Origin: a virus
Virus record (IMG/VR): IMGVR_UViG_3300042559_001228
Location: 1 to 44,654 of that record
Direction: 5' to 3' (one strand)
DNA length: 44,654 nucleotides
Shown here: positions 11,319-42,676 of the stretch, one piece after another
How the letters are laid out: each line of letters opens with the position of its first letter
How positions within the stretch are numbered: position 1 is the stretch's first letter
Program-made: the position numbers and the translations under genes
The notes under the pieces: model-generated
Database searches by the model: none
What the model was told of the DNA's origin: nothing
The model's input: only the letters and a program-made list of their open reading frames with translations

Positions 11319-11932
11319 TGAAAGTATTAGAATTATTTGCGGGTAGTCGTTCAGTAGGAAAGATTGCGGAAGAATTAGGAATGGAAGTGTTTTCATCTGA
11401 TTTAATTGAATTTGAAGGTATTCATTACCCAATTAGTATATTAGATTTTGATGTATCTAAAGTTCCGTTTCAACCCGATGTAATTTGGGCATCTCCACCA
11501 TGTACTGGTTTCAGTGTTGCAGCAATCGGTCACCACTGGTCAGGAGGTAAAGGTGCTTATATACCTAAAACAGAAACCGCAAAGTTGGGTATTGAATTAG
11601 TTAGAAAGACATTAGAAATTATTAATCACTTCCAACCAACATATTGGTTTATGGAAAACCCACGAGGTGTTCTTCGTAAGTTAGATGTTGTTAAAGGATT
11701 GAAAAAGAACTCTGTAACTTATTGCCAATATGGTGACGAGCGAATGAAACCAACTGACATATGGACCAACAGTGATGTTTGGATTCCAAAACCAATGTGT
11801 AAGAATGGTGACCCATGTCACGTTGCGGCACCAAGAGGTAGTAGAACAGGAACACAAGGTCGAGCCAACGCTTATGAAAGAAGTAAGATACCGGCAGATT
11901 TATGTTTAGAAATATTAAAAAGTTGTAAATGA
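11318..11932 (+). CDS. C5-cytosine methyltransferase-like protein, short form
   Basis: A 204-residue relative of DNA cytosine methyltransferases: motif I LELFAGSRS (4-12), motif IV SPPCTGFS with Cys62, motif VI ENP (113-115). Motif VIII (QxRxR) and a proper target-recognition domain with motifs IX and X are not evident, as in the short 'ELFAGSRS' proteins found in many phages. A zinc-like or redox cluster may be formed by C-x5-C (PMCKNGDPCH). It may be a minimal methyltransferase or need a partner. It overlaps the next gene by 4 nt. Confidence 0.75.
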   Translation: MKVLELFAGSRSVGKIAEELGMEVFSSDLIEFEGIHYPISILDFDVSKVPFQPDVIWASPPCTGFSVAAIGHHWSGGKGAYIPKTETAKLGIELVRKTLEIINHFQPTYWFMENPRGVLRKLDVVKGLKKNSVTYCQYGDERMKPTDIWTNSDVWIPKPMCKNGDPCHVAAPRGSRTGTQGRANAYERSKIPADLCLEILKSCK

Positions 11933-18249: not shown

Positions 18250-18681
18250 GTGAAATTTCAACCAATTGTTTTTTTCTTTGGGTTTTTTTGGACATTGTCT
18301 GCATTATATTGTTTAAGGTGGCATTACAAAGAAGGTAATCTCAAAACACCAACCATATTTCTTTCCGTATTTTTAGGTCCATTTTTGTTTTTTATTCTTA
18401 TGGATAATAATATAGAAATGAAAAAAATAGAAAGAGAGAATAAGAGAACGAAAAACGAAAGAGAAAGTAACGAGAGACATAGAAGATGGTTTCAAACATT
18501 GGGATTAATTAATGGACAAAGGATACCAAACTGGGGTAGAACTATTCCACCTCCACCACCGATATCAAGAGTAGAACGAGCTTTGAGAGAAAGAGATGAT
18601 GCAATTAGGTCCGCAAGGGAAAGAATAGAACCACCAAATAGAAGGTACAATAATAAAGATTTTAAATTTTTCAGAGGATGA
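18250..18681 (+). CDS. Membrane protein with Pro-rich tail and C-terminal FKFFRG
   Basis: A 143-residue protein starting with GTG. Residues 3-22 and 33-52 are hydrophobic and probably span the membrane. They are followed by a highly charged helix (KIERENKRTKNERESNERHR) and a proline stretch (PPPPPIS). The last residues are NNKDFKFFRG, the same peptide that starts several proteins at 26-32 kb; 14 nt (18664-18677) are identical to 29520-29533. The stop overlaps the next start (GGATGA). Function unknown. Confidence 0.6.
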   Translation: MKFQPIVFFFGFFWTLSALYCLRWHYKEGNLKTPTIFLSVFLGPFLFFILMDNNIEMKKIERENKRTKNERESNERHRRWFQTLGLINGQRIPNWGRTIPPPPPISRVERALRERDDAIRSARERIEPPNRRYNNKDFKFFRG

Positions 18682-22996: not shown

Positions 22997-23374
22997 ATGT
23001 TAGAGAACATCAGTCCCTACGTTTATCCCGGTATTAAAAATAACGAGGAGTATAAAAAATTAAGAAGGTTTAAAAGGGATAGAATTACAAAAGAGGAAAT
23101 ACTTGATATAGTTGCTAAGAATTGCTGCGTCACTGCTTCCCAAATACTATCAAGAGTTAGAGATAGAGAAGTAATCGACGCCAGATTTATTTTTGTTGCG
23201 GTTATGAAAAGAGAGTTTGGTCACACCTTAAAACACATCGGTAAAATTTTAAACAGAGACCACACAACTATCATTCATTCATTGGAAACATTTGCCGATA
23301 GATACAAACAGTATGATGAATATAGAGAAGTTGCAGATGGGGTATTCGAAGAAATCAAATCAAAAATAGAGTAA
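22997..23374 (+). CDS. Stand-alone DnaA domain IV-like DNA-binding protein
   Basis: A 125-residue protein consisting of a helix-turn-helix like the C-terminal domain of DnaA. The family signature is nearly intact: LKHIGKILNRDHTTIIHS (78-95), with RDHTT as the DnaA-box recognition segment, preceded by ITKEEILDIVAKNCCVTASQIL. There is no AAA+ ATPase region, so it cannot load helicase by itself. It may bind DnaA boxes to direct or block replication, or act as a transcription factor. It starts a unit with its own promoter and its stop overlaps the next ATG. Domain assignment is strong. Confidence 0.85.
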   Translation: MLENISPYVYPGIKNNEEYKKLRRFKRDRITKEEILDIVAKNCCVTASQILSRVRDREVIDARFIFVAVMKREFGHTLKHIGKILNRDHTTIIHSLETFADRYKQYDEYREVADGVFEEIKSKIE

Positions 23375-25876: not shown

Positions 25877-25904
25877 GAATATACAAAATATTATTGTATA
25901 TTTG
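25874..25904 (+). promoter_or_regulatory. Promoter TTTG-N19-TATATTTG
   Basis: TTTG at the end of the terminator's T-run, AATATACAAAATA after it, then TATATTTG at 25897-25904, 21 nt before the ATG at 25926. Confidence 0.65.
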
Positions 25905-25925: not shown

Positions 25926-26399
25926 ATGAACAAACATTTTGAATTTAGTGAAGAGGATTTTAATGACCCTAAAAAGTTTATGAAAAAATTTAGGGCTATG
26001 TTAAAAGATATGAGGGAGGGGTTAAGTGATGATAGAAGAAAAGAATTGGATGATTTTATGAAGAAAAGTAGAGTTAAAACTGATATGTTTGAAGTTCGTA
26101 ATGTTAGAGGTGCGAGGTCGTTTGGTTTATTTGAAGAGGTTATGAATATTACTGAGTTCATGATAACAAACGGAATCGAGAGTTTCTTTTCTATTCCAAG
26201 AAGACCAGGTAAAACTTATGACGAACACATTGACGCCGTTTATGAACATTACGTTAATGTTGAGCAGTTAGAATTTGACGAAACATTTATTAGTAACGTT
26301 AATTACCTTCTTGAATATTATGTTGAGGATGAACAATACGAAAAATGTGTTTATCTCCAATGGTTGAAGGAACAATACACAGAGTACATTTCAAAGTAA
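25926..26399 (+). CDS. Hypothetical helical protein
   Basis: A 157-residue protein. Charged amphipathic N-terminal helices (FNDPKKFMKKFRAMLKDM, RRKELDDFMKKS) are followed by a region with FSIPRRPGKTYDEHIDAVYE and a C-terminal repeat-like helical pair (YYVEDEQYEKCVYLQWLKEQ). The C-terminal part looks like a TPR-type helical hairpin. No family recognised. It is the first gene after a promoter. Confidence 0.55.
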   Translation: MNKHFEFSEEDFNDPKKFMKKFRAMLKDMREGLSDDRRKELDDFMKKSRVKTDMFEVRNVRGARSFGLFEEVMNITEFMITNGIESFFSIPRRPGKTYDEHIDAVYEHYVNVEQLEFDETFISNVNYLLEYYVEDEQYEKCVYLQWLKEQYTEYISK

Positions 26400-26405
26400 T
26401 TTAAA

Positions 26406-26630
26406 ATGGAACAATGTCAAAAAATAAAATTTGGAAAAAAGGAAGTTAAGACGGTCTTAAACTACATTCGTTTTAAACAAAGTAAACGATGGAGAAAAGA
26501 AGTACGATACTACCATTGTTCAGATTGTAACCATTGGCATTTAACATCTTGGGACAATTATGATGAAGAACCAATAGACATCCAAATAGATTATTCTAAA
26601 TGGGAAAAATTATTAAAACAAGAATCATAA
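26406..26630 (+). CDS. Zinc-ribbon-like phage protein
   Basis: A 74-residue protein with YYHCSDCNHWHLTSW (around residues 36-50): Cys-x-x-Cys with nearby His-Trp-His, a pattern common in small phage proteins where a basic helix (RFKQSKRWRKEVR) precedes a zinc knuckle. It is likely to bind metal and perhaps nucleic acid. Function unknown. It lies 6 nt downstream of the helical protein gene. Confidence 0.6.
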   Translation: MEQCQKIKFGKKEVKTVLNYIRFKQSKRWRKEVRYYHCSDCNHWHLTSWDNYDEEPIDIQIDYSKWEKLLKQES

Positions 26631-26632
26631 AC

Positions 26633-26815
26633 ATGGAAATTAAAATTAAAATTAAATATCATATCGAAGTTGGTGAAGAAATTATTGAGTGTGAAACTTT
26701 AGAACAGGCCGAAAAAAAGATGAAGAATTTAAGATCTTCTGAATCTGAATTTTATCTTTATCGCACAGAATTAAAAGGTAAATCAATTAAAGAAATCTAT
26801 TTAATCGGTAACTAA
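26633..26815 (+). CDS. Hypothetical small protein
   Basis: A 60-residue protein beginning MEIKIKIKYHIEVGEEIIEC, a beta hairpin pattern, followed by a helix (ETLEQAEKKMKNLRSS) and a final strand. I use the ATG at 26633, 2 nt after the preceding stop; the in-frame ATG at 26600 would overlap that gene. Function unknown. Confidence 0.5.
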   Translation: MEIKIKIKYHIEVGEEIIECETLEQAEKKMKNLRSSESEFYLYRTELKGKSIKEIYLIGN

Positions 26816-26820
26816 CTCAT

Positions 26821-27156
26821 ATGATTAAAGCGTTTAAATTTTTTACTGGTAATGAAGAGGACGAAGATTATCCAATCGAAGATATGGATATCGAAACCTT
26901 AGATGATGATAGTCCTTCTTGGTCATGGACGTGTATGTTACCATTAGATGGTTACACATACGATATTGTCGAAACCCAAAGCAACGGGATACATGAATTC
27001 TTAAGTAGATTCCCAAACAGATTTTGTGTTCCTGTGTTATCGATAACCGGACCAAACGGAAGATTTCATGATACTAACACACAATATGATGATGGTTGGG
27101 GATTTGATATCACATCCGATTTACTTACAATAAGATTTTTAAGATTTGAATCTTAG
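26821..27156 (+). CDS. FKFF-tagged protein
   Basis: A 111-residue acidic protein starting MIKAFKFFTGNEEDED. The first ten residues match the FKFFxG tag shared by several unrelated proteins up to 32.2 kb. The rest includes MLPLDGYTYDIVETQSNGIH and FCVPVLSITGPNGRFHD, suggesting a small beta domain. It ends in a 4-nt tail-to-tail overlap with the leftward gene at 27153. Function unknown. Confidence 0.6.
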   Translation: MIKAFKFFTGNEEDEDYPIEDMDIETLDDDSPSWSWTCMLPLDGYTYDIVETQSNGIHEFLSRFPNRFCVPVLSITGPNGRFHDTNTQYDDGWGFDITSDLLTIRFLRFES

Positions 27157-28298
27157 TCTTCTGCTAAACTATATAATTTACTTAATTTTTTAAGTGTATT
27201 AGTTGCAGAAATTTTAATGTCGGATAATTCTTTTTGATAGAAATCAATATAGTCAGTGTAACTATTAATATGTTTTTTGATTTTTTTCTTTGCTTTAACT
27301 TTTGCTTCGTTTTCACCTGTTGTAACAATATTATCAGCAATACCAAGTGCAGAAGCTAACATCATCATTAAATCTGATTGCATATCCATCATAACATTAT
27401 CAAGAAAATCATCACGTCTTCTCGAAACTATTTGATAAAACTTTTTAAGAGCCATTGTTACTTTCTCACCATCGGTCATATCTTTATAATCGATTTTAAG
27501 ATGACTTAAAAAAGATTCAATTCCTTCAATACTATTGTACATTTCCTCTATGAATTTATTGTAATCATAATTCATCATGTATTTTAGGAAATCATATGTG
27601 GTTGTTTTCGATAAGAAGTTTTTAAATTCTTTTTTAGTAATTCCTTTAAGTTTCATTAATGTGTATATTTCACTGTTTCTAACACTTTCCTCAACAACAT
27701 GTGAATAATATAACATAATTTTAAATTTCATTAAAGGACGCACACTAACCATAACATCTTCAATAGAATGATACTTAACTTTTTCACCAGCATTTCTTAT
27801 TGGTTTCTTGTTGAAGTCATAAGCATGTTTTAATTCGTGAGCTATTGATGATATCGTTTTGGTTTCAAATTTTAAAATACCATTAATTAAATCTTCTTCA
27901 GACACATCATCAGGTACTTGATATTTCGAACCCATTGAGATTCCATCATTAATTTTTTTGTATATTAATTTGTAATCATTTGTTAATTTATCACCAATAG
28001 CAAGACTCATTTGTTCAATTTCAACCCTTCTATATTTGTCAAAATCAAATGTGACCATAAAATCAACATTTGTAAAAGACAAATCTCCAATACGGTAATC
28101 ACCTGTTATTGAAAATTCAACTTCGGTAGAACCACCCAACTTCATATTACCAAATTTCGACTTTATCTCTTCAATTAAACCATCAATATACTTTCTATAA
28201 ATTGATTTTGCAGTGTCGTAAATCCCTTCTGGAACCCCGACAACCTCATTTGCTTGGATTAACTTATTGTATTGTTCTTCTGTGATTGATATCCTCAT
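27153..28298 (-). CDS. Tagged putative HExxH metalloprotease
   Basis: A 381-residue protein encoded opposite to all its neighbours. It starts MRISITEEQYNKLIQANE, a clear copy of the TExQ tag. Residues 154-158 are HELKH in SSIAHELKHAYDF, a zincin HExxH motif; the third ligand is not certain. Residues 55-100 look like a beta-rich domain (EVEFSITGDYRIGDLSF). The C-terminal ~130 residues are helical and lysine-rich. A protease carrying the tag would suit a virion-borne enzyme delivered with DNA or a head-maturation activity. TATTTATA lies 6 nt upstream of the ATG on its strand. Confidence 0.6.
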   Translation of the reverse strand: MRISITEEQYNKLIQANEVVGVPEGIYDTAKSIYRKYIDGLIEEIKSKFGNMKLGGSTEVEFSITGDYRIGDLSFTNVDFMVTFDFDKYRRVEIEQMSLAIGDKLTNDYKLIYKKINDGISMGSKYQVPDDVSEEDLINGILKFETKTISSIAHELKHAYDFNKKPIRNAGEKVKYHSIEDVMVSVRPLMKFKIMLYYSHVVEESVRNSEIYTLMKLKGITKKEFKNFLSKTTTYDFLKYMMNYDYNKFIEEMYNSIEGIESFLSHLKIDYKDMTDGEKVTMALKKFYQIVSRRRDDFLDNVMMDMQSDLMMMLASALGIADNIVTTGENEAKVKAKKKIKKHINSYTDYIDFYQKELSDIKISATNTLKKLSKLYSLAED

Positions 28299-28304
28299 AA
28301 CATA

Positions 28305-28312
28305 TATAAATA
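28305..28312 (-). promoter_or_regulatory. TATTTATA motif, leftward
   Basis: TATTTATA on the minus strand, 6 nt upstream of the tagged metalloprotease-like gene. It shows that the motif follows gene orientation. Confidence 0.4.
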
Positions 28313-28333
28313 CCTCCCAAAATAATAAGGTTA

Positions 28334-28367
28334 TTTTTGGATATTCAAAATAGTATTCGTATATTTG
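28334..28367 (+). promoter_or_regulatory. Promoter TTTTTG-N20-TATATTTG, leaderless start
   Basis: TTTTTG at 28334-28339, GATATTCAAAATA after it, TATATTTG at 28360-28367. The ATG at 28372 is 4 nt past the -7 box (TGGT between them). Confidence 0.7.
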
Positions 28368-28371
28368 TGGT

Positions 28372-28797
28372 ATGAATACATCAATATTAACCTTTTTATT
28401 GTCAATGTCTCCATTGATTATAAAAACTGCGGAAGCTCCAAGTACATTTAATTATCCGATAAAGATAACTAAATCAATTAGTTATGAGACAGTTACCCTT
28501 ACAACCTATTCTGCAAGCGTAGGAGAAACTGATTCAACTCCTCACATAACAGCATCAGGATTTAAGATTGACACCACTAATCCAAAAAAACACAGAATCA
28601 TTGCGGTTTCAAGAGATTTAAAAAAGAAATGGCCGTTTGGTACTAAGGTTAGAATTAAAAGTGCGGGAAAATATAACGGAGTTTATACTGTTAAAGATGT
28701 TATGAACAAAAGATATAAGAATAGAATAGATATATTAATTGGTGAGGATGATAGACAAACCACCATGAACAACGTAAAAATCACTAAAATTAAATAA
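28372..28797 (+). CDS. Exported 3D-domain cell-wall protein
   Basis: A 141-residue protein with a signal peptide (about residues 1-22, ending KTAEA) followed by a double-psi beta-barrel of the 3D type: YSASVGETDSTPHITASG, HRIIAVSRDLKKKWPFG, YNGVYTVKDVMNKRYKNR then IDIL with the conserved aspartates. 3D domains occur in peptidoglycan lytic enzymes such as MltA relatives. An export signal suggests that it acts in the periplasm, for example in lysis. It has its own strong, apparently leaderless promoter. Domain assignment is good. Confidence 0.75.
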   Translation: MNTSILTFLLSMSPLIIKTAEAPSTFNYPIKITKSISYETVTLTTYSASVGETDSTPHITASGFKIDTTNPKKHRIIAVSRDLKKKWPFGTKVRIKSAGKYNGVYTVKDVMNKRYKNRIDILIGEDDRQTTMNNVKITKIK

Positions 28798-28798
28798 T

Positions 28799-29245
28799 AT
28801 GACTCCTGATTTCACAGTTAGACCATCCCAATTAATAAACATTCTTTGGGTATTTATTGGTGGATTTGCAGTATCCGCCGCAGTATCAACAGAATTTTAT
28901 TGGATTGCACTTGTTGTGTTAATACCAATCTATAAGATTTTAGATTACGCGTGTTGGACCTACGATATCTATGACGACCGTATTGTAGAAAGTCGTGGAG
29001 TATTTTCTGTTACCACAAGAGAAGTGTATTTCCATAGAATTAAATCTGTAATGATGGAAAGACCTTTTTGGATGAGAATTCTTGGTGTTGGTAGTATCAT
29101 GGTTAGAAGTTCTGACCAATTTACCAGTTACTTTGTAATCTATGGTATCGATGACGTTGAGGAATTTGAAGAAGATTTTCAAGATGTTATTCAAGATAAA
29201 AGAAAGGAAAATGGAATGAAAGAACATGAAATATTTCAAATGTAA
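28799..29245 (+). CDS. Membrane protein with bacterial PH domain
   Basis: A 148-residue protein with two membrane helices (about residues 12-30 and 33-52) followed by a bacterial pleckstrin-homology-like domain (YDIYDDRIVESRGVFSVTTR, YFHRIKSVMMERPFW, ILGVGSIMVRSS). This layout matches YdbS-type proteins of unknown function in host cells. In a phage it could sit in the inner membrane and alter its composition or host defence. It follows the 3D-domain gene directly. Confidence 0.75.
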   Translation: MTPDFTVRPSQLINILWVFIGGFAVSAAVSTEFYWIALVVLIPIYKILDYACWTYDIYDDRIVESRGVFSVTTREVYFHRIKSVMMERPFWMRILGVGSIMVRSSDQFTSYFVIYGIDDVEEFEEDFQDVIQDKRKENGMKEHEIFQM

Positions 29246-29262
29246 AATATAAAACAATTAAT

Positions 29263-29388
29263 ATGACATCAAAATTTTTTGGTTCACCAAAACCAAACCA
29301 AGTTAAGAAAGGAGATAAAAAAACTCCAACCACACAACCTAAACCAGTGAAGACCACTCAGATTAAAAAAAATAATAGAGGTAAATAA
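29263..29388 (+). CDS. Small basic Pro/Lys-rich protein
   Basis: A 41-residue frame starting MTSKFFGSPKPNQVKKGDKK, rich in Lys, Pro and Thr and probably disordered. It starts 17 nt after the previous gene and is followed by ATG after 1 nt. No function assigned; short length makes it uncertain. Confidence 0.4.
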   Translation: MTSKFFGSPKPNQVKKGDKKTPTTQPKPVKTTQIKKNNRGK

Positions 29389-29389
29389 T

Positions 29390-29494
29390 ATGAACAAGTT
29401 AATAATTAAATTTAAAAAAATCCTACAAGAAATCTTGTTGGGGTTTAAAATTGCTGAAGAGAATAAACATAAATCCCAATGGGGTAAGTTTTAA
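29390..29494 (+). CDS. Very small amphipathic peptide
   Basis: A 34-residue frame (MNKLIIKFKKILQEILLGFK then a polar tail). The alternation of Lys with Ile/Leu would form an amphipathic helix able to lie on a membrane. It fills the gap between two genes exactly, but is too short for certainty. Confidence 0.35.
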   Translation: MNKLIIKFKKILQEILLGFKIAEENKHKSQWGKF

Positions 29495-29507
29495 ATTAAA
29501 AAAATGT

Positions 29508-29870
29508 ATGAGAGAATTCAAATTTTTCAGAGGGTACGTTGATAACCAATCGATAGGAATTAATTGGGATGAAATCAATAGAATAAATGAAATAAATAGA
29601 TTACCAACTTGGAGTGGTACTAACTACCAACCAACATGGATTACTAATCCGGGTTATATTGCTCCACAACCATATACTATAACAACAACACCTGGTACTG
29701 GTACATATACGATTCCATTTAGTGGAGCAATTAGTGGTTTATCAACAGGATTTAGTTTAACAACATCAAATCCAAACGGAACAACTTACACTACAGCAAA
29801 CTTTGGTGGATCTTTTACAACTACAGGAACAATATCTACAAATACATTTTATACTTCAAATATTAAGTAA
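29508..29870 (+). CDS. FKFF-tagged Thr/Gly-rich protein
   Basis: A 120-residue protein starting MREFKFFRGYVDNQS, a clear tag copy. After residue 45 it becomes very rich in threonine, glycine, proline and serine (ITTTPGTGTYTIPFSGAISG), a composition seen in fibre or surface proteins. I use the ATG at 29508, giving the same tag spacing as its neighbours; the in-frame ATG at 29451 would run through the previous small gene. The stop overlaps the next start (TAATGA). Function unknown. Confidence 0.55.
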   Translation: MREFKFFRGYVDNQSIGINWDEINRINEINRLPTWSGTNYQPTWITNPGYIAPQPYTITTTPGTGTYTIPFSGAISGLSTGFSLTTSNPNGTTYTTANFGGSFTTTGTISTNTFYTSNIK

Positions 29871-30262
29871 TGACTAAGTTCGTTTTTTTCAGGGGTTATG
29901 TTGGAACATTGAATGTGATGGATGGAGAAACTTATGCAACCGCATCACTCAATAATGATACACCTGAAGGTCATATTAATGTTAGAAGGGAAATACTAAG
30001 AGGTAGGTTGGGCACACCGGAGAGACATCAAGATATCTTAAGAAGATTACAAATGACTAACGATTCGAGAGATTTAAATGATAACCCAATAAGATTATTT
30101 CAAGCAACAACGGTAACAACCGTTAACCCAAAGTTTTGGACGAAGGTAAAGATAGTTCTTCAAGAAAGTTGGAGGTTAGAACCTATTGGTATTGTTGTTG
30201 TGAGCATATTGTTAACAATGGTCACAATCATCGGAATCGCCAAAATACTAAGTATATGGTAA
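29870..30262 (+). CDS. FKFF-tagged membrane protein
   Basis: A 130-residue protein starting MTKFVFFRGYVGTLN, a variant tag (FVFFRGYV). The middle is charged and helical (RREILRGRLGTPERHQDILR), and the C-terminus is one membrane helix (IGIVVVSILLTMVTIIGIA). This is a tail-anchored layout with the tag facing the cytoplasm. It overlaps the next tagged gene by 7 nt. Confidence 0.55.
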   Translation: MTKFVFFRGYVGTLNVMDGETYATASLNNDTPEGHINVRREILRGRLGTPERHQDILRRLQMTNDSRDLNDNPIRLFQATTVTTVNPKFWTKVKIVLQESWRLEPIGIVVVSILLTMVTIIGIAKILSIW

Positions 30263-30480
30263 ATGAATTCAAGTTCTTTCAGAAGAATCCTTACAAAGAT
30301 AAATGTAGACTTATGGTTGGTTCATCTTTTATATTCCAAGGGTATTATTGTATCGTAATGAACATGTATAATAATGAGTTTAAGTTTCTCAAGCAGGAAA
30401 CTGGATTTAGTTGTTATATGACTTATAAATGTTATTTAAACACACCATCTGCTGCGGGTAGACAATTAAACAGAAGATAA
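30256..30480 (+). CDS. FKFF-tagged small protein with a second internal copy
   Basis: A 74-residue protein starting MVNEFKFFQKNPYKDK. A second, similar segment occurs after residue 36 (MYNNEFKFLKQETG), so the tag may be duplicated within the protein or two tiny proteins may have fused. It contains five cysteines. It overlaps the end of the previous gene, and the next gene begins 1 nt later. Confidence 0.5.
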   Translation: MVNEFKFFQKNPYKDKCRLMVGSSFIFQGYYCIVMNMYNNEFKFLKQETGFSCYMTYKCYLNTPSAAGRQLNRR

Positions 30481-30481
30481 T

Positions 30482-30733
30482 ATGATTTACATTTTAATTT
30501 ACATAATAGGATTTATCCTAACACTAACATTCTTAAAGTTATATGGTAAGAAAATGGAGATTGATTATGATCCGCCACACGAACCTGACTATGATGACTA
30601 TAAAAATAATGCTGAGGCTTATCTATTCTTTTCATTGAGTTGGTTTGTGACAGCACCAATGTTTATTATTGTTGCAACGATTCGGTTGTTATATAAATTT
30701 GCTCAATGGTTTTTAAAATACCCAAACGTATAA
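30482..30733 (+). CDS. Two-span membrane protein
   Basis: An 83-residue protein with two hydrophobic helices (about residues 2-20 and 45-70) separated by an acidic loop (MEIDYDPPHEPDYDDYKNNA). It lacks the tag of its neighbours. A holin-like or membrane-remodelling role is possible; nothing specific supports it. Confidence 0.55.
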   Translation: MIYILIYIIGFILTLTFLKLYGKKMEIDYDPPHEPDYDDYKNNAEAYLFFSLSWFVTAPMFIIVATIRLLYKFAQWFLKYPNV

Positions 30734-30734
30734 T

Positions 30735-31139
30735 ATGATAAAACCATTTAAACTACTTAAAGGATACACATATAGTGATGAATACACACTTCCTATTTCA
30801 AGAAGAATGTCGGGGAGAACTATTGCACAAGATTTAATAAACACAGTTTCTCAAACAGTAAGAGACCCGAACTATGTTCCTGCAAGTTATATATCAATAC
30901 CACAACTCAACCACGACGGTCATGTTATTAATATTGTAAGGAGACGTATGAACCTTCGTTTACCTTGGAGGGGATACCAAATGCACGTATTTGAACCTGA
31001 TGGTTATCCATTACTAAAGATTGTTAGTGGAATTAATATTGGTGGAATGTTTCACATAGTTTATTTAATTACAAGAGACGGGAATACTGAAAATTATAGA
31101 GTAAGTGTCCCATTAGTTAATTTACAAAGAAGAGGATAA
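30735..31139 (+). CDS. FKLL-tagged protein
   Basis: A 134-residue protein starting MIKPFKLLKGYTYSDE. The first ~47 nt are almost identical to the start of the gene at 31687, but the proteins differ afterwards. The rest has basic helices and strands (INIVRRRMNLRLPWRGYQMH, FHIVYLITRDGN). No domain recognised. Confidence 0.55.
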   Translation: MIKPFKLLKGYTYSDEYTLPISRRMSGRTIAQDLINTVSQTVRDPNYVPASYISIPQLNHDGHVINIVRRRMNLRLPWRGYQMHVFEPDGYPLLKIVSGINIGGMFHIVYLITRDGNTENYRVSVPLVNLQRRG

Positions 31140-31140
31140 T

Positions 31141-31404
31141 ATGGCAAAAGCAAGAAAGATTTTATCAAACACTATAAGTGAGTTGTTAAAAGAAACATCG
31201 TTGGAAACAAGAATTAAAATGTCGTGTTGGTTCATGATTAACAATGTTATTCATGAATCAGGTGCAAGAGAAGAAGCTGCGTGGGATGAAACAAATCCAA
31301 AAGATATTGAAATGATGAAACTATTGGATGATAAAACAAAAGAATTAACGGAAACAATATTAAGAAACATTAAAGAATGGGAAGAAGATGGTAAGCCTAT
31401 TTAA
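31141..31404 (+). CDS. Hypothetical helical protein
   Basis: An 87-residue protein, mostly helical, with acidic stretches (DETNPKDIEMMKLLDDKTKE) and no tag. It has one cysteine and one tryptophan near residues 28-30 (CWFMINNVIHESG). It overlaps the next tagged gene by 17 nt. Function unknown. Confidence 0.55.
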   Translation: MAKARKILSNTISELLKETSLETRIKMSCWFMINNVIHESGAREEAAWDETNPKDIEMMKLLDDKTKELTETILRNIKEWEEDGKPI

Positions 31405-31690
31405 ATTTTTTCACGGACTGACCAAGAAAAGTAGGGTTAATACTATTATTACCAATGGTAGATTAAGAAGATTACCCAATAGTCAAGTACCAACTCGTCA
31501 AGAATATGACACACCAGAACTTCGTAGTATATTCCTACAGGGGTGGAGAGCATGTGAAAGAGGTGAGGAAATATATAATAACCCATACGGTAATAGAGAA
31601 GAACTAATATATTCATTACATACTGCGTGGGAAATGGGTTATTTGGATTGTTTTAACACAAGAAGAACATCAACAAGAAGATACGTATGA
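31388..31690 (+). CDS. FKFF-tagged protein with RMF-like motif
   Basis: A 100-residue protein starting MVSLFKFFHGLTKKSR. Residues 49-92 contain FLQGWRACERGEEIYNNPYG and later AWEMGYLDCF. The layout G-W-x-A-x-x-x-G ... N-P-Y ... W-x-x-G-Y is that of ribosome modulation factor and RMF-like phage domains. The next gene carries the same layout. The protein could bind ribosomes, but no other evidence is available. Confidence 0.55.
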   Translation: MVSLFKFFHGLTKKSRVNTIITNGRLRRLPNSQVPTRQEYDTPELRSIFLQGWRACERGEEIYNNPYGNREELIYSLHTAWEMGYLDCFNTRRTSTRRYV

Positions 31691-32166
31691 TAAAACCATT
31701 TAAACTACTTAACGGATACACATATAGTAATGAGTTGCATGCACCATATATTCCGTTGCAGATAACACATGCACCACCAGAAGGAATATCACATCGTCAT
31801 TGGAATATGTTACCACAGGATTTAAGAGGCGCAACACTACAAGAAATGGATTCTTTTATTCAAGGATGGGAAGATGGTCGTATTGTCGGTGTGGTTAATC
31901 CATATCGTGATAGAACAAGACGTAATTTGTGGAATAGAGGATATTTGGAGTGTAATAGAAGAAGAAGAGTGTATACTGAAAGGGATGTGGAATACTATAA
32001 CACAGATGATTTTGTCTTCTCTGATGTGTCCTCAATTATGTTTGACCCAATTAGTTCTCAACCATACAAACATATGATGTTTAGACATATTGAGGATGGA
32101 GATACGGTGGAAGGTAATAGAATATTTCCCGACCACCCAATGTGGAACTTCCCTGATATAATATAA
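31687..32166 (+). CDS. FKLL-tagged protein with RMF-like motif
   Basis: A 159-residue protein starting MIKPFKLLNGYTYSNE. It has an RMF-like block, SFIQGWEDGRIVGVVNPYRD and then LWNRGYLECNRRRR (about residues 57-97), matching the neighbour at 31388. The C-terminal part (DTVEGNRIFPDHPMWNFPD) is unassigned. The tag DNA nearly duplicates that of 30735. Overlaps the previous gene by 4 nt. Confidence 0.55.
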   Translation: MIKPFKLLNGYTYSNELHAPYIPLQITHAPPEGISHRHWNMLPQDLRGATLQEMDSFIQGWEDGRIVGVVNPYRDRTRRNLWNRGYLECNRRRRVYTERDVEYYNTDDFVFSDVSSIMFDPISSQPYKHMMFRHIEDGDTVEGNRIFPDHPMWNFPDII

Positions 32167-32745: not shown

Positions 32746-33435
32746 ATGAGAATGAAGATACAAGCATTATTTATCTCAGATGTTCATCTGGGTTCAAAAG
32801 GTTCCAACGCAAATGAGGTCCTAAACATTCTCAAACAATACCAACCCGAATATCTATTCTTAGTTGGGGATATAATTGACGGATGGTTACTGAAAAGGAA
32901 GTTCCGTTGGCCACAATCACACACAAACGTATTAAGAAAGATATTATCACATTCAAAGAATGGGACAAAGGTAATATACATACCGGGGAATCATGATGAA
33001 TTTCTAAGGGAATATGGTGAATTTTCTTTTGGAAACATTGAAATTCATAATGAGTATATATGGAAAAATACTTTTATTACTCATGGTGATCTTTATGATG
33101 GTGTAGTTAAATTAAAATGGTTAGGTGTTCTTGGTTCAATTGGATATGATATGGCAATATCAATTGATAGAAGACTTAAGAAATTGGGGATGAAGAGATC
33201 ATTATCCAAGTTTTTAAAGGATAAAGTTAAAGAGGCGGTGAAGTTTATAACACAATATGAGGTGGAGTTAACCAGACAAGCCAAGAAACATCGCTGCACA
33301 ACCGTGATATCTGGACACATTCATCATCCTGAGGATAGAATGATTGATGGTATAAGATACATGAACTGCGGGGATTGGATTGAAAACAATAGTTATATAA
33401 TATACAACAACGATGAATATAAGGTCATTAAATAA
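32746..33435 (+). CDS. LpxH-like metallophosphoesterase
   Basis: A 229-residue phosphoesterase with SDVHLGS (10-16), GDIIDGW (41-47), GNHDE and SGHIHHP, the metal-ligand order of UDP-2,3-diacylglucosamine hydrolase-like proteins (COG2908). These hydrolases act on nucleotide-sugar lipids in lipid A synthesis, but the broad group also has other phosphoesterase roles. It overlaps the GT2 gene by 23 nt, supporting a glycan/lipid context. A second ATG at residue 3 is also possible. Confidence 0.8.
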   Translation: MRMKIQALFISDVHLGSKGSNANEVLNILKQYQPEYLFLVGDIIDGWLLKRKFRWPQSHTNVLRKILSHSKNGTKVIYIPGNHDEFLREYGEFSFGNIEIHNEYIWKNTFITHGDLYDGVVKLKWLGVLGSIGYDMAISIDRRLKKLGMKRSLSKFLKDKVKEAVKFITQYEVELTRQAKKHRCTTVISGHIHHPEDRMIDGIRYMNCGDWIENNSYIIYNNDEYKVIK

Positions 33436-34129
33436 GAGATTAACAATAGTAATCCCGTCAAAGAACGAGGGAGTAATCTTATACAATTGCATTCAGTACA
33501 TATCAAGACAAAACCATATCGATGGGGTAAGAGTAATCATTGCTGATGTATCAGATAATAATGATTCCATACTATGGATTAAGAAAGCGCAATTAGAGTT
33601 CAAACACTTATTAAAGATTACGGTAATCAAAGGGGGATATCCAGCAGAAGGAAGATTAAATGGAAGTATGTTGGTAACAACTCCGTATATGTTATTCTTG
33701 GATGCGGACATTTTATTAACCAATCCAAAGATTATTGAGGAGTGTTTATCTCATAAGAAGGATTTGGTAACAGTTCCATTCAGTACAGACTATCCATACA
33801 GATGGGTGTTCAGGGTATTCGATATCCTACAATCACTATCTACCTTAATCGGTTCACCATTTGCCATAGGGGGATTTCAACTATGGAAGACGGAATCCTA
33901 TTGGGAAGTTGGGGGATATAACCCACAGGAACTATTCGCCGAGGATTATTCAATATCACAGAAGGTAAAATCAAATAACTTTAAGGTGGTAAACATAGAA
34001 GGAACATATACATCATCCAGAAGATTTAAATCCAAAGGAGTATTATGGATGTTCAAGATAATGATTAAGAGTTACATAAACAGAAAGAACCCAGAGTTCT
34101 TCAAACATCATCATAACTACTGGAATTAA
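33413..34129 (+). CDS. Family 2 glycosyltransferase
   Basis: A 238-residue GT-A glycosyltransferase. The N-terminus TIVIPSKNEG (11-20) is the nucleotide-sugar binding start of GT2 enzymes, and FLDADILL (95-102) contains the metal-binding DxD (Asp97, Asp99). EDYSIS in the second half gives the candidate catalytic ED. It would transfer a sugar from a nucleotide donor to a surface glycan or lipid. It is next to the LpxH-like gene and the sulfotransferases, forming a plausible surface-modification module. There is no obvious C-terminal membrane anchor. Confidence 0.88.
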   Translation: MNIRSLNKRLTIVIPSKNEGVILYNCIQYISRQNHIDGVRVIIADVSDNNDSILWIKKAQLEFKHLLKITVIKGGYPAEGRLNGSMLVTTPYMLFLDADILLTNPKIIEECLSHKKDLVTVPFSTDYPYRWVFRVFDILQSLSTLIGSPFAIGGFQLWKTESYWEVGGYNPQELFAEDYSISQKVKSNNFKVVNIEGTYTSSRRFKSKGVLWMFKIMIKSYINRKNPEFFKHHHNYWN

Positions 34130-34130
34130 T

Positions 34131-34226
34131 ATGGGAACAATATTTCCTGTCATGATATCATTTACAATTGTAATAGGATTGACTATTATTGTAATGATAA
34201 TCGACCACATCACAAAAAAGAGATAA
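34131..34226 (+). CDS. Very small single-span membrane peptide
   Basis: A 31-residue frame that starts 1 nt after the glycosyltransferase stop. It is almost entirely one hydrophobic helix (IFPVMISFTIVIGLTIIVMI) with a short basic end (HITKKR). Placement and composition support it; a regulatory or anchoring subunit for the adjacent enzymes is a guess. Confidence 0.45.
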   Translation: MGTIFPVMISFTIVIGLTIIVMIIDHITKKR

Positions 34227-34235
34227 AAAAATTAT

Positions 34236-34922
34236 ATGAAAATTCTAATAATTGCAAAGGGGAGATGTGGTTCACATTCATTAATAGATTGGTTAGGTGA
34301 GGAATTTGACTTAAAAACCATCTACGAAAATGAAGATAAGGACACTTCGGTGGTCGATAACTATATTATTAAAAGACATCCATCATCTATTAAAGGAGAT
34401 TTATCATCAGATTTTATCACCGATGGATACGATTACGTAATAAGGTTAATTCGGGAAAATACAACACTAACCGCTGAGAGTGCTGTGTGGGCAGAAGAAA
34501 AACAAAAATATCACCAGAGGGGTAAGGAAAAATATATTATAGATGAAGCCTTTTTGAGAAAACACCATAATGAAATATGGAATAAAAAAATAGGTTATGA
34601 TGAATCCAACGATGTAATAAGGAATATAGGTGTTGGTATATTAGTTACATATGAAGAATTATTTTTATATGGGACAGGTCAGGAAAAGATAGAGAAGTAT
34701 ATGGGTTTTAAATCTACTTCAAAATTAAATACTGACCTCAAGAAAAGTAGATTTCACATAATGGATAAAACAGTATATATTACATATGATTTAGCATATA
34801 ATAAAACCACTATCTTAGAAGAAATTGTTAAACAAAAAGATTTAGTTATCGATAATTTAAACGAAAAGATTAAAAATTTAAACGAAACAATTGTAGATTT
34901 GGTATCATCAAAAAATAGATAA
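34236..34922 (+). CDS. Sulfotransferase-like protein
   Basis: A 228-residue protein with an N-terminal AKGRCGSHSLIDWLG (7-21). This matches the 5'-phosphosulfate loop of sulfotransferases (R-x-G-[ST]), which use PAPS to sulfate glycans or other acceptors. The C-terminal ~30 residues form a coiled coil (VIDNLNEKIKNLNETIVDLV). Homology outside the P-loop is not obvious. It stands in the glycan module and is followed directly by a membrane protein. Confidence 0.6.
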   Translation: MKILIIAKGRCGSHSLIDWLGEEFDLKTIYENEDKDTSVVDNYIIKRHPSSIKGDLSSDFITDGYDYVIRLIRENTTLTAESAVWAEEKQKYHQRGKEKYIIDEAFLRKHHNEIWNKKIGYDESNDVIRNIGVGILVTYEELFLYGTGQEKIEKYMGFKSTSKLNTDLKKSRFHIMDKTVYITYDLAYNKTTILEEIVKQKDLVIDNLNEKIKNLNETIVDLVSSKNR

Positions 34923-35245
34923 TGATTAAAAGAAAGAAACCCTTTGCAAAGATTGTAAAGGAATGGAATGAAGCATCCACCATGGAAGTATGGGAGGGTG
35001 TAAGGGATAACTTTATATTTGGATTCCTTGGTGCAACGATTGTTGTATTCATTGCCACCCGAGCGGATCTTATGGTTCTATTCGGATATCTGATATACTA
35101 TTTTTTTATGGGGAGGATAGTAAATCGCCCCAAATACGTAACAGACCTTGGTAAACTCATAGTGTTCCCCATCCCATCAGCACTTGGTGCATTCGCAGGA
35201 TATAAGTTCTCGTACATTCTACAAGAGTTAACCCAACGTATATGA
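34922..35245 (+). CDS. Two-span membrane protein
   Basis: A 107-residue protein with two or three hydrophobic stretches (about residues 31-46, 50-63 and 77-97). The N-terminus is basic (MIKRKKPFAKIVKEWNE), similar to the start of the gene at 35917 (MRRKKPFMDDIHK). It lies between the two sulfotransferase-like genes and overlaps both. It may anchor them at the membrane, but this is inference. Confidence 0.55.
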   Translation: MIKRKKPFAKIVKEWNEASTMEVWEGVRDNFIFGFLGATIVVFIATRADLMVLFGYLIYYFFMGRIVNRPKYVTDLGKLIVFPIPSALGAFAGYKFSYILQELTQRI

Positions 35246-35823
35246 AGATATGTATAATATCATCCATAGGTAGATCTGGAACAACCTCACTATTTGATAT
35301 GATGAGTTTGTGTCTACCAAGATACTATACATGTTTAAATGAACCATTCGGTCGATTTCAAAGAGGGCATGAGATGAATCTTATTGAAAACGCCCCCAAT
35401 GTTCTTGTAAAGGAGTTATTAAATAATACGGTTAACCATAAGGTTTTCCCATATGATTGGGTGTATCAGACCTTTGATAAGGTTATTGTGATGGATAGAA
35501 GGAATAAGTGGGAACAGGCGGAGAGTCACGCAGCACATTCATATAAAGGGGATAACTTTAAAAGTTGGCACAATAGAAGGGAATACGACTTAACAAACAT
35601 ACCCACGGAGTATATTAAGGCATTAGCAGACCAATCGGAGGATTTAATGCAATATCATAGGGGTAAGATTTACTATTACGAGGATGTGTTTATGGAACAT
35701 AACTTGGATTTGTTAATGGAAATCATGAATTCCGTGGGAATAACAGAGATACCCAATCAAATACTAAAGGATTATTTCTATAGTCCCAAGAAGAAGGTAA
35801 GAATAGTAAAGACCCTAATTTAA
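35242..35823 (+). CDS. Sulfotransferase-like protein, second
   Basis: A 193-residue protein with SIGRSGTTSLFDMM (8-21), the phosphosulfate-binding loop in its common R-S-G-T/S form, and VIVMDRRNKWEQAES around residues 81-95, which corresponds to the 3'-phosphate loop (R-x7-8-S) of PAPS enzymes. These two elements together make sulfotransferase a good call. Acceptor unknown. It overlaps the membrane gene by 4 nt. Its final helix is basic (YFYSPKKKVRIVKTLI). Confidence 0.72.
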   Translation: MKICIISSIGRSGTTSLFDMMSLCLPRYYTCLNEPFGRFQRGHEMNLIENAPNVLVKELLNNTVNHKVFPYDWVYQTFDKVIVMDRRNKWEQAESHAAHSYKGDNFKSWHNRREYDLTNIPTEYIKALADQSEDLMQYHRGKIYYYEDVFMEHNLDLLMEIMNSVGITEIPNQILKDYFYSPKKKVRIVKTLI

Positions 35824-41251: not shown

Positions 41252-41475
41252 TTTATTTTTGTTTTTAATTTGTTTAAAATCCCAGTAAACTTTCCCTCAC
41301 CCTGGCTCACCTCAGGTAAGAATTCATATCTTGTGTTCATTGAACCTCCCAAGTAACCAGTAAAGAATTTGGTTGGCTCAACATATTGGCTTGATACTTT
41401 ATACTTCATAACCCATTCATTGAATGATAATGGTGTTTGGAAGTTGCTTAATTTAACTTTCAGTTTCTTTTCCAT
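41230..41475 (-). CDS. Hypothetical small protein
   Basis: An 81-residue basic protein (MEKKLKVKLSNFQTPLSFNE ...). The middle has FFTGYLGGSMNTRYEFL and the C-terminus a basic helix (GILNKLKTKIKWVEKIV). It overlaps both neighbours, as in the other leftward operons. Function unknown. Confidence 0.55.
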   Translation of the reverse strand: MEKKLKVKLSNFQTPLSFNEWVMKYKVSSQYVEPTKFFTGYLGGSMNTRYEFLPEVSQGEGKFTGILNKLKTKIKWVEKIV

Positions 41476-42088
41476 ACATTTCTTTTATATCGTTAAAAAT
41501 TTCTTCTAATGTCTTAAGGTCTTCGTCCCCAGTAATAAAATGGAACATTTCCTTCACTGATTCAAAGGTTACATCTTCATCACTCTCGAACAAATAGTCA
41601 ATGTCCCCGTCGATAGATTCAAAGAAGTTCTCCTTGTCGAAAAGATATCTACCCTCATTGTATGAATAATCTTCTTCGGTTAATCCATTCTCATTGTCAA
41701 AATAAGATTTACCACAGAAGTCACAACCTGGTTCTTCATAATATAACTCACACTTCACATTGAATAACCTACCCAAGTGTTGAATGAAGTTTATTGGTGG
41801 TGACCAAGCTGAATCGAACGACATTGTTATTGATTCGTCATCATAAGTGATATTAGCTTCGTTGTATGACACATCCCACTTACAACCCCAGTAATTAATG
41901 TTGGCATCGTACCATCCTCCGTGTTCGTATTCATTTAACTCAATAGATTTGTCACGACCAACAAGAGCCATAAAAATACCAGGGGATGTGTTATCCTTAC
42001 TCTCGATATCTTCGAGATAAAATTTAATTCTGTCCAAGTTTTCGTTATCACCTGTAATAGTAAGGTGATTGTTGCACCAATTTGGCAT
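41453..42088 (-). CDS. Api92-like phage protein (DUF1281 type)
   Basis: A 211-residue protein starting MPNWCNNHLTITGDNENLDR, the characteristic opening of Api92-like proteins with a ferredoxin-like fold, followed by NYWGCKWDVSYNEA, SFDSAWSPPINF and ELYYEEPGCDFCGK. These blocks are typical of the family, whose function is unknown. I chose 42088 rather than an in-frame ATG at 42112 because the -7 box (42110-42117) overlaps the latter, and MPNWCNN is the family start. It is first in a leftward unit. Confidence 0.8.
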   Translation of the reverse strand: MPNWCNNHLTITGDNENLDRIKFYLEDIESKDNTSPGIFMALVGRDKSIELNEYEHGGWYDANINYWGCKWDVSYNEANITYDDESITMSFDSAWSPPINFIQHLGRLFNVKCELYYEEPGCDFCGKSYFDNENGLTEEDYSYNEGRYLFDKENFFESIDGDIDYLFESDEDVTFESVKEMFHFITGDEDLKTLEEIFNDIKEMYGKETES

Positions 42089-42162: not shown

Positions 42163-42645
42163 TTACCAAGAAGCTCTGTATTCAAAGTCACCAGAGTACA
42201 ATCCGTGTTCTTTGGATTGTTCGTGTTCTTCTAATAACTCCTCAATGATTTTGATAGTTGAGTTTACATCTTCTTTGTAATACTCATCAATTTCATCTCC
42301 ACCGAAAAAGAAACCCTGTACTGGTGGAAGAAGTTCTTTAGCCTTATCAAAGTTGGAACTAACTTCTTTTAGAGTTTCCAACAACTCTTTCAGTTTGTCT
42401 TCATCAACATTGATGTCTTGACATTCATCAACACCGCCACCGCAATTATCAATGAACCATCCGTGAAGTGCATTGAACTTTCTCCAATACGCCACCTGTT
42501 CGGTGATGTAACAAATACGATTTGGTTTAATGTCGTTACGAACTACACCATTCTTTTTAACTTCGATTTGGTGTTGTTGTTCAGGTGGGTTGTGTTCCCA
42601 ATTTTGTACATAAGTTTTTTTGTACAGATACATGTCTAGTCCCAT
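42163..42645 (-). CDS. Conserved phage protein (MGLDMYLYKK family)
   Basis: A 160-residue protein that begins MGLDMYLYKKTYVQNW and contains EQVAYWRKFNALHGWFIDNC (about 48-68), a combination seen in many phage and mobile-element orphans. The C-terminal half is helical and acidic with VQGFFFGGDEIDEYY. No enzymatic function is established for the group. It has its own promoter. Confidence 0.7.
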   Translation of the reverse strand: MGLDMYLYKKTYVQNWEHNPPEQQHQIEVKKNGVVRNDIKPNRICYITEQVAYWRKFNALHGWFIDNCGGGVDECQDINVDEDKLKELLETLKEVSSNFDKAKELLPPVQGFFFGGDEIDEYYKEDVNSTIKIIEELLEEHEQSKEHGLYSGDFEYRASW

Positions 42646-42676
42646 GATTTTTTAGTTTAAGTGTTAATTAATAATG

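Follow-up and report, generated by a model that had tools for sequence, protein, structure and literature searches.

A short basic-aromatic peptide, FKFF, stands at one terminus of many small and otherwise different proteins in a group of related phage contigs. It came to notice in the virus record IMGVR_UViG_3300042559_001228, a stretch of 44,654 bases (33% GC) that is analysed here over its entire length and called the window. The peptide recurs on 36 clusters of protein bodies and is selected as a peptide. On balance, and by a narrow preference, we read it as a docking tag carried at one end by a modular set of proteins that are probably made early.

To assemble the related records, IMG/VR was scanned for the peptide pattern, which gave 55 loci; 48 were discarded as chance matches and 7, with several tagged starts each, were kept. 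A second scan with the pattern MIKPFKF[FL] returned further relatives, including the 335,630-base T4-like phage G010. G008 and G016 were left out as chance matches, although each has one matching start, and G015 because its pattern is the same as that of G011. With a simple, crude gene caller, the window and 13 related contigs (14 records) yielded 179 tagged proteins by a stricter pattern, from which 11 rows (clusters F20, F21, F22, F31, F33 and F41) were removed as chance, body-motif or hydrophobic matches. The 168 proteins kept comprise 154 with an N-terminal and 14 with a C-terminal tag. Once the tag is removed, single-linkage BLASTP at E<1e-4 sorts them into 36 body clusters (31 N-tagged, 5 C-tagged; 22 with at least two members; median length 113 aa).

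The occurrence of the peptide at protein ends far exceeds chance. In 12 related records, some of them closely related, F[KR][FL][FL] falls within residues 2-12 of 122 of 1,896 proteins of at least 60 aa. Internal windows (27 of 27,335) predict 1.9, and 200 shuffles gave a mean of 3.1 and a maximum of 10; 119 of the 122 proteins belong to the kept tag set. The motif is found in the last 12 residues of 20 proteins (shuffle mean 2.0, maximum 6), eight of which carry the FKLFARE body motif of the F9/F20 family rather than a tag, leaving 12. As the records share ancestry, these counts are non-independent draws and the 36 clusters are the better count. The first-pass annotation of the window had proposed one such peptide on many different bodies, and the wider set bears this out on a larger scale: the tag is present in close relatives, and the full-length body homology that would have reduced the proposal to simple paralogy was looked for and not found. 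A single paralogous family was likewise rejected, since 36 clusters remain without the tag; among the seven N-tagged window proteins, those starting at 31388 and 31687 are related to each other. In Pfam and PHROGs, the tagged proteins scanned matched no family with confidence apart from cluster F7, which matched gp23.

Selection on the peptide itself is seen in its codons, whose use equals that of the genome (TTT 0.72 versus 0.74; AAA 0.80 versus 0.76). Among 160 tags there are 43 distinct 12-nt cores; 97 of the 160 read FKFF, 39 FKFL and 8 FKLL. Codon differences among relatives are 173 nonsynonymous to 226 synonymous in the core, as against 10,766 to 4,663 in the bodies. The residue preceding the core is mostly P or E (Q in 10); the one following is mostly R, Q, K, S or T, and the next mostly G or K.

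In the window, all seven FKFF-type starts of the first-pass annotation exist as open reading frames (ORFs) at their positions. The gene at 18250-18681 is an eighth, absent from that annotation because its tag sits at the other end:

18250-18681, plus strand: protein with a hydrophobic N-terminus and the tag at its extreme C-terminus (...NNKDFKFFRG-stop); cluster F10.
18661-18678, plus strand: C-terminal tag FKFFRG, then stop.
26821-27156, plus strand: N-tagged acidic protein, MIKAFKFFTG; cluster F3, 12 members.
29508-29870, plus strand: N-tagged Thr/Gly-rich protein, MREFKFFRGYV; cluster F5, 8 members.
29870-30262, plus strand: N-tagged tail-anchored protein, MTKFVFFRGYV; cluster F1.
30256-30480, plus strand: N-tagged 74-aa protein, MVNEFKFFQK; cluster F4, 9 members.
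30735-31139, plus strand: N-tagged protein, MIKPFKLLKGYTY; cluster F2.
31388-31690, plus strand: N-tagged protein, MVSLFKFFHG; cluster F0, as 31687.
31687-32166, plus strand: N-tagged protein, MIKPFKLLNGYTY, with RMF-like helices followed by beta strands in the predicted model; cluster F0.

The start at 29508 is an internal ATG of a longer ORF that begins with TTG at 29451, and that at 30256 an internal ATG of an ORF from 30136, reading FKFFQK rather than FKFFxG. Because 31388 and 31687 share one cluster, the seven starts represent six. The earlier view that the bodies differ past the tag stands for F3, F5, F1, F4 and F2, which are separate clusters; the F0 pair are related to each other.

The placement of the tag on the protein is also consistent with a docking role. 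In F1 (window 29870) the hydrophobic segment is C-terminal and the tag N-terminal in all 14 members. The reverse arrangement, an N-terminal membrane-like segment with a C-terminal tag, is seen in 5/5 members of F13 and in 4/6 of F10 (window 18250); for the other two, the gene call began at an internal start. In all three clusters, tag and anchor are thus at opposite ends of the protein. No membrane-like segment is found in the C-tagged clusters F35, F37 and F40; three of the 13 F2 members pass the hydrophobicity cut-off at one position, and F2 was not counted as membrane-anchored. The AlphaFold2 model of the 31687 protein (mean pLDDT 70.0, 8 aligned sequences) has residues 1-27 below pLDDT 50, and that of an F9 protein (mean pLDDT 73.6) has no secondary structure before residue 26. 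In both predicted models, then, the tag lies outside the fold.

The timing of the tagged genes was approached through promoter-like boxes, found by eye in G010 and by k-mer counts in six records: NTATTTAT, which precedes structural genes, and TAnnTTTG, the promoter box of the Bacteroidota type. The latter appears in Flavobacterium papers, among them PMC6847099. Over 12 records, TAnnTTTG (the early box) precedes 17 of 51 tagged operons (shuffle 3.2) and NTATTTAT (the late box) 3 of 51 (shuffle 4.8). Structural operons of G010 show the opposite pattern, with the late box in 14/23 (2.1) and the early box in 1/23 (1.5), and so do operons led by genes with the N-terminal TExQ-type tag (late 6/10, shuffle 0.8; early 1/10, 0.7). 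The remaining operons have the early box in 189/712 (44.9) and the late box in 154/712 (60.0). The boxes were derived partly from the same data, which favours the contrast. Judged by this distribution of motifs, the FKFF genes are probably early and the TExQ genes late, in line with the first-pass view that the two tags are distinct. Its suggestion of a delivery or assembly system fits poorly with C-terminal tags and with operons that show an excess of host-type rather than late boxes; among the sorting, docking and secretion roles that it raised, docking fits best, and the same C-terminal tags and host-type boxes leave secretion unsupported. Two sites in the window precede tagged runs:

25897-25904, plus strand: TATATTTG box, before the run 25926-27156 that ends in tagged 26821.
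28336-28367, plus strand: Bacteroidota-type promoter-like site (TTTG ... TATATTTG, with TATATTTG at 28360), before the run 28372-32166 with six tagged genes.

The window TExQ genes 22703 and 25339 (tag type MKxxITExQL) are preceded by the late box. In G010 the gene of the same type at 78819 likewise lies behind NTATTTAT, as structural genes do, and so do MKLxDxx starts at 42494, 44070 and 46935. The TExQ-type tag is a candidate capsid-targeting sequence (CTS) of this clade, separate from FKFF. A different motif tried as a late promoter, TATAAATA, was not enriched (107 in G010 against 131.8 in a mono-shuffle).

One tagged body has a recognizable source. Cluster F7 does not occur in the window and is found in its near-twin G007 at 41466-41753. 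Two copies match Pfam Gp23 (PF07068), over a segment only, at 59.4 and 51.2 bits (cut-off 24.4). F7 also matches PHROG 138 (E=7.6e-14), the immuto capsid protein by tblastn (E=2e-9) and, at 67.8 bits, a profile built from 85 capsid proteins (80 from the clade, 5 from outside), where 3,580 shuffled sequences reach at most 5.4. On this sequence evidence the F7 body is a genuine piece of gp23, the capsid protein, about 50-60 residues long. All 50 F7 copies found at F9 loci, many of them near-identical, carry the tag. In a tree, 32 distinct F7 segments group on a branch of their own, separate from the capsid proteins (support 0.80). By this tree F7 may stem from its own lineage or from elsewhere; mean identity to the clade capsids is 41.5%, and identity to four outside ones 36-43%.

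Other bodies score weakly against the gp23 profile: F2 at 10.3 bits (profile residues 73-99), F0 at 8.9 (517-530), F8 at 7.3 (85-130) and F6 at 5.7 (314-378), the last at shuffle level. For F2 the weak likeness is to an N-terminal gp23 segment and is seen in some members other than the window protein 30735, which does not clearly share it. Two F2 members reach 20.2 and 18.9 bits with Pfam Gp23, below the cut-off, and the scanned F0, F8 and F6 members gave no Gp23 row. Tagged clusters were also compared, profile to profile, with the proteins of G010 in 1,800 of 4,620 comparisons, half of them reversed controls. F7 (E 3e-19) and F0 (E 1.2e-4) stand out in likeness to gp23; the match of F2 to gp23 (0.0043) and those of F1, F6 and F5 to other proteins (0.0047, 0.0048 and 0.007) fall in one range with the best reversed control (0.0074). 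Untagged ORFs of 48-51 aa adjoin tagged arrays in G002 (84940-85095), G003 (42500-42649) and G010 (11325-11471); their helix resembles the F7/capsid helix (E 6e-4 to 1.5e-3).

On the HK97 fold, the F7 segment would be the P-domain/spine-helix region, and the F2 and F8 likenesses fall in the conserved early part of gp23, where the T4 Gol peptide lies. Gol, according to PMC3014915, is a 29-residue stretch and the most conserved part of gp23; a stabler form spans 100 residues of the protein's first quarter. It binds EF-Tu and enables Lit to cleave EF-Tu. The CapRel SJ46 sensor touches the beta-sheet and spine helix of the capsid P-domain in a predicted complex (PMC9712102), and a staphylococcal Thoeris likewise senses capsid protein, according to PMC11312562. 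The tagged proteins could form a jumbo-phage counter-immunity kit, in which one peptide docks dozens of interchangeable early proteins to a single hub, several bodies are capsid pieces that act as early decoys and have CapRel- or Lit/Gol-like sensors occupied or destroyed ahead of capsid synthesis, and the tags serve as cassette seams. We regard this fuller proposal as possible and rather unlikely.

The capsid segment in F7, and the form of the tag as a short N-terminal peptide on varied small proteins, would also suit a CTS that sends these proteins into the prohead for injection with the DNA, as in T4. There the CTS comprises about 10 N-terminal residues and brought GFP into the core (PMC9958956). 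The C-terminal position of the tag in 5/36 clusters and 14/168 proteins and the motif evidence from the promoters both count against such targeting: the tagged operons have no late-box excess, in contrast to structural operons, which argues against virion targeting. The prohead-protease site ([LI]xE followed by [AGS]) occurs within residues 8-40 of 3/147 N-tagged proteins (shuffle 6.6); this test is weak, because TExQ proteins show no excess either (3/51, 3.6). Taken together, targeting of FKFF proteins to the capsid seems quite unlikely.

The DNA around the tags shows a second feature. Of the 147 N-tagged genes, 23 share exactly 14 nt with the end of the gene upstream, and in 22 of these 23 the upstream stop is the TAA within the tag's F-K codons, giving endings such as NETI and YETI. 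In G001 and G006, one gene fuses the first 20 residues of a 30735-type protein to a 31687-type body, apparently through loss of the intervening genes by recombination between tags; F0 members, too, exchange segments. Since adjacent tags offer similar DNA and their F-K codons a stop in another frame, the tags may act as seams where one body can be exchanged for another or dropped. Pressed further, the overlaps and the junction in G001 and G006 could mean that the element acts in DNA or RNA, as a seam or as an AT-rich start region that helps initiation without a Shine-Dalgarno site, and encodes FKFF by chance. Bacteroidota have no Shine-Dalgarno sites, and low structure at the start region aids initiation (PMC6847099). 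Such an element would explain neither the genome-like codons and frequent synonymous changes of the tag nor the return of the peptide at C-termini, and we give it a low probability. Three untagged genes belong to the same run of the window:

28372-28797, plus strand: untagged, first gene of the run 28372-32166.
30482-30733, plus strand: untagged membrane-like protein within the tagged run.
31141-31404, plus strand: untagged protein within the tagged run, whose end overlaps the 31388 start by 17 nt.

The last overlap is the same in G007, and in G010 and G012 the homologues run 17 nt into the tagged gene that follows. Elsewhere in the window, the protein of 22997-23374 includes the DnaA domain IV-like sequence RDHTTIIHS.

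Two further bodies were compared by predicted structure. Residues 28-101 of the 31687 model align with nearly all of three RMF chains, which are the top three rows of 993 aligned (Z 6.4, 5.8 and 4.7; next row 3.5). The root-mean-square deviations are 3.6, 3.4 and 6.2 over 52, 52 and 57 residues, and a Z under 8 may reflect a common arrangement. Only the third of these rows bears the title RMF; the first two are taken as RMF. The C-terminal part is weakly like EF-P (Z 3.4). Pfam RMF scores of 11.1 bits for the window protein and 18.4 for an F0 relative are both below the cut-off of 27.9. With these middling Z values, the model may represent an RMF-like fold.

For F9, Foldseek with the predicted model returned 17 matches, none at E<=0.001. 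Of 226 F9 relatives 80 were taken, as were 80 of 504 capsid relatives. The gene neighbourhoods of untagged F9 relatives were read in five contigs. In four (L374, L386, L388 and L394) the protein begins QLELF within ten residues, and the gene lies between a gp45-like clamp gene and dUTPase/gp44 genes, named by eye; in the fifth, L375, it begins MAKKKKKE and is not next to a clamp gene. Peptides of the form QLxLF bind the clamp, and tagged F9 carries FKFF at the end where these relatives carry QLELF. One possible origin of the tag, then, is a peptide that docked proteins onto a replication or transcription hub. The stricter version, in which FKFF replaces a QLxLF-like peptide and still recruits to such a hub, is improbable: besides L375, the tag lacks the Q of the QLxLF consensus, has a K inside and is seldom preceded by Q. 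Single-query phmmer, moreover, found no gp45, gp44 or gp62 relatives in G010 or G021, which are T4-like by capsid; a clamp partner could still be that of the host. Replication of these two phages may differ from that of T4. A membrane-associating or degradation signal of unneeded or short-lived early proteins would suit the amphipathic, basic-aromatic character of the tag (KFFKFFKFFK serves as a cell-penetrating carrier, PMC10213699), and is hardly to be expected of four residues, short for an anchor, that are also borne by already-anchored proteins.

The phages that carry the tags are large and probably have Bacteroidota hosts. In G010 the genes for terminase, portal, scaffold and capsid were identified by eye, and tblastn confirmed the capsid gene. 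The named phages nearest by capsid, among the matches listed, are LR756508.1 (an uncultured huge phage), the Microcystis phage Mel-JY01, the Flavobacterium phage immuto and the Rhodothermus phage RM378, at 35-44% identity. G007 overlaps the window and has an identical 31687 copy. In G010, 21 tagged genes lie on the same strand within 3.3-17.5 kb, partly consecutive and partly interspersed with untagged genes. In the 269-kb relative G021, whose capsid protein shares 77% identity with the one in G010, the F9-F7 pair is the sole clear tagged set; this could be the more ancient arrangement, with the large arrays having expanded later. The pair sits within a block of glycosyltransferase-, radical-SAM- and sulfotransferase-like genes, and large blocks of this kind (named by eye) occur at 66-75 kb and 250-306 kb in G010 and at 32746-35823 in the window.

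Beyond these records the FKFF DNA pattern stays near control level. Raw, unread matches number 5, 2, 0, 2 and 4 in LR756508.1, Mel-JY01, immuto, RM378 and LR756511.1, against 6, 2, 6, 0 and 4 in the reversed control, and 27 against 20 in 19 contigs with capsids 74-87% identical to that of G010. In tblastn against INPHARED phages, 31687 had no match and 29870 two matches at E=3. Judged by these pattern counts, the tagged array is limited to a subclade.

Returning to docking, the tagged proteins would be made early in infection, and the tag would bind one common partner in the infected cell, a host protein or a phage hub. The bodies would then be interchangeable effectors brought to that shared partner. 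Some bodies may copy other machinery, as the RMF-like fold (translation) and the gp23 piece suggest; the latter could blunt a capsid-sensing defence. The tags may, in addition, serve as seams for the exchange or loss of bodies. Several points weigh against this account. Docking to a putative partner is read from the form of the peptide, and early timing from promoter motifs. Most tagged operons have no early box and 32 of 51 have neither box; the nine operons with the F7/F9 pair have one early box, one late box and seven times neither. The number of clusters depends on a crude gene caller and on BLAST with single linkage, which joins shared segments too. Likeness to gp23 outside F7 is short and weak, the four scores above standing against a shuffle maximum of 5.4 bits, and the profile-profile match of F2 to gp23 (E 0.0043) is no better than that of F1 to an unrelated protein (0.0047). 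The closest capsid relative (87% identical) has no FKFF pattern in the 105 kb examined.

If the docking peptide is real, it offers a single handle with which to find the hub of dozens of small proteins that have no assigned role, and the tagged capsid fragment suggests that immunity based on capsid sensing may be countered by phage mimics of the part recognised. In the open-access literature searched, with partial coverage and chosen words, neither a docking peptide of this kind nor a tagged capsid fragment was described. Known systems share parts of the arrangement. F7 is a small, separate tagged protein, not a whole capsid protein, and the 31687 protein differs from RMF in its tag, linker and C-terminal beta part and in scoring below the Pfam cut-off. 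The TExQ peptide resembles FKFF as a short N-terminal peptide common to many proteins of the same phages. The T4 CTS of IPII and IPIII is, like FKFF, a terminal peptide of about 10 residues on small, differing phage proteins; FKFF, however, also occurs at C-termini, and in operons without late-box excess. Encapsulin cargo-loading peptides are short, sit on a flexible N- or C-terminal end and occur on unrelated proteins. FKFF is like them in using either end of unrelated proteins, and differs in its type of promoter, which speaks against packaging in the phage head.

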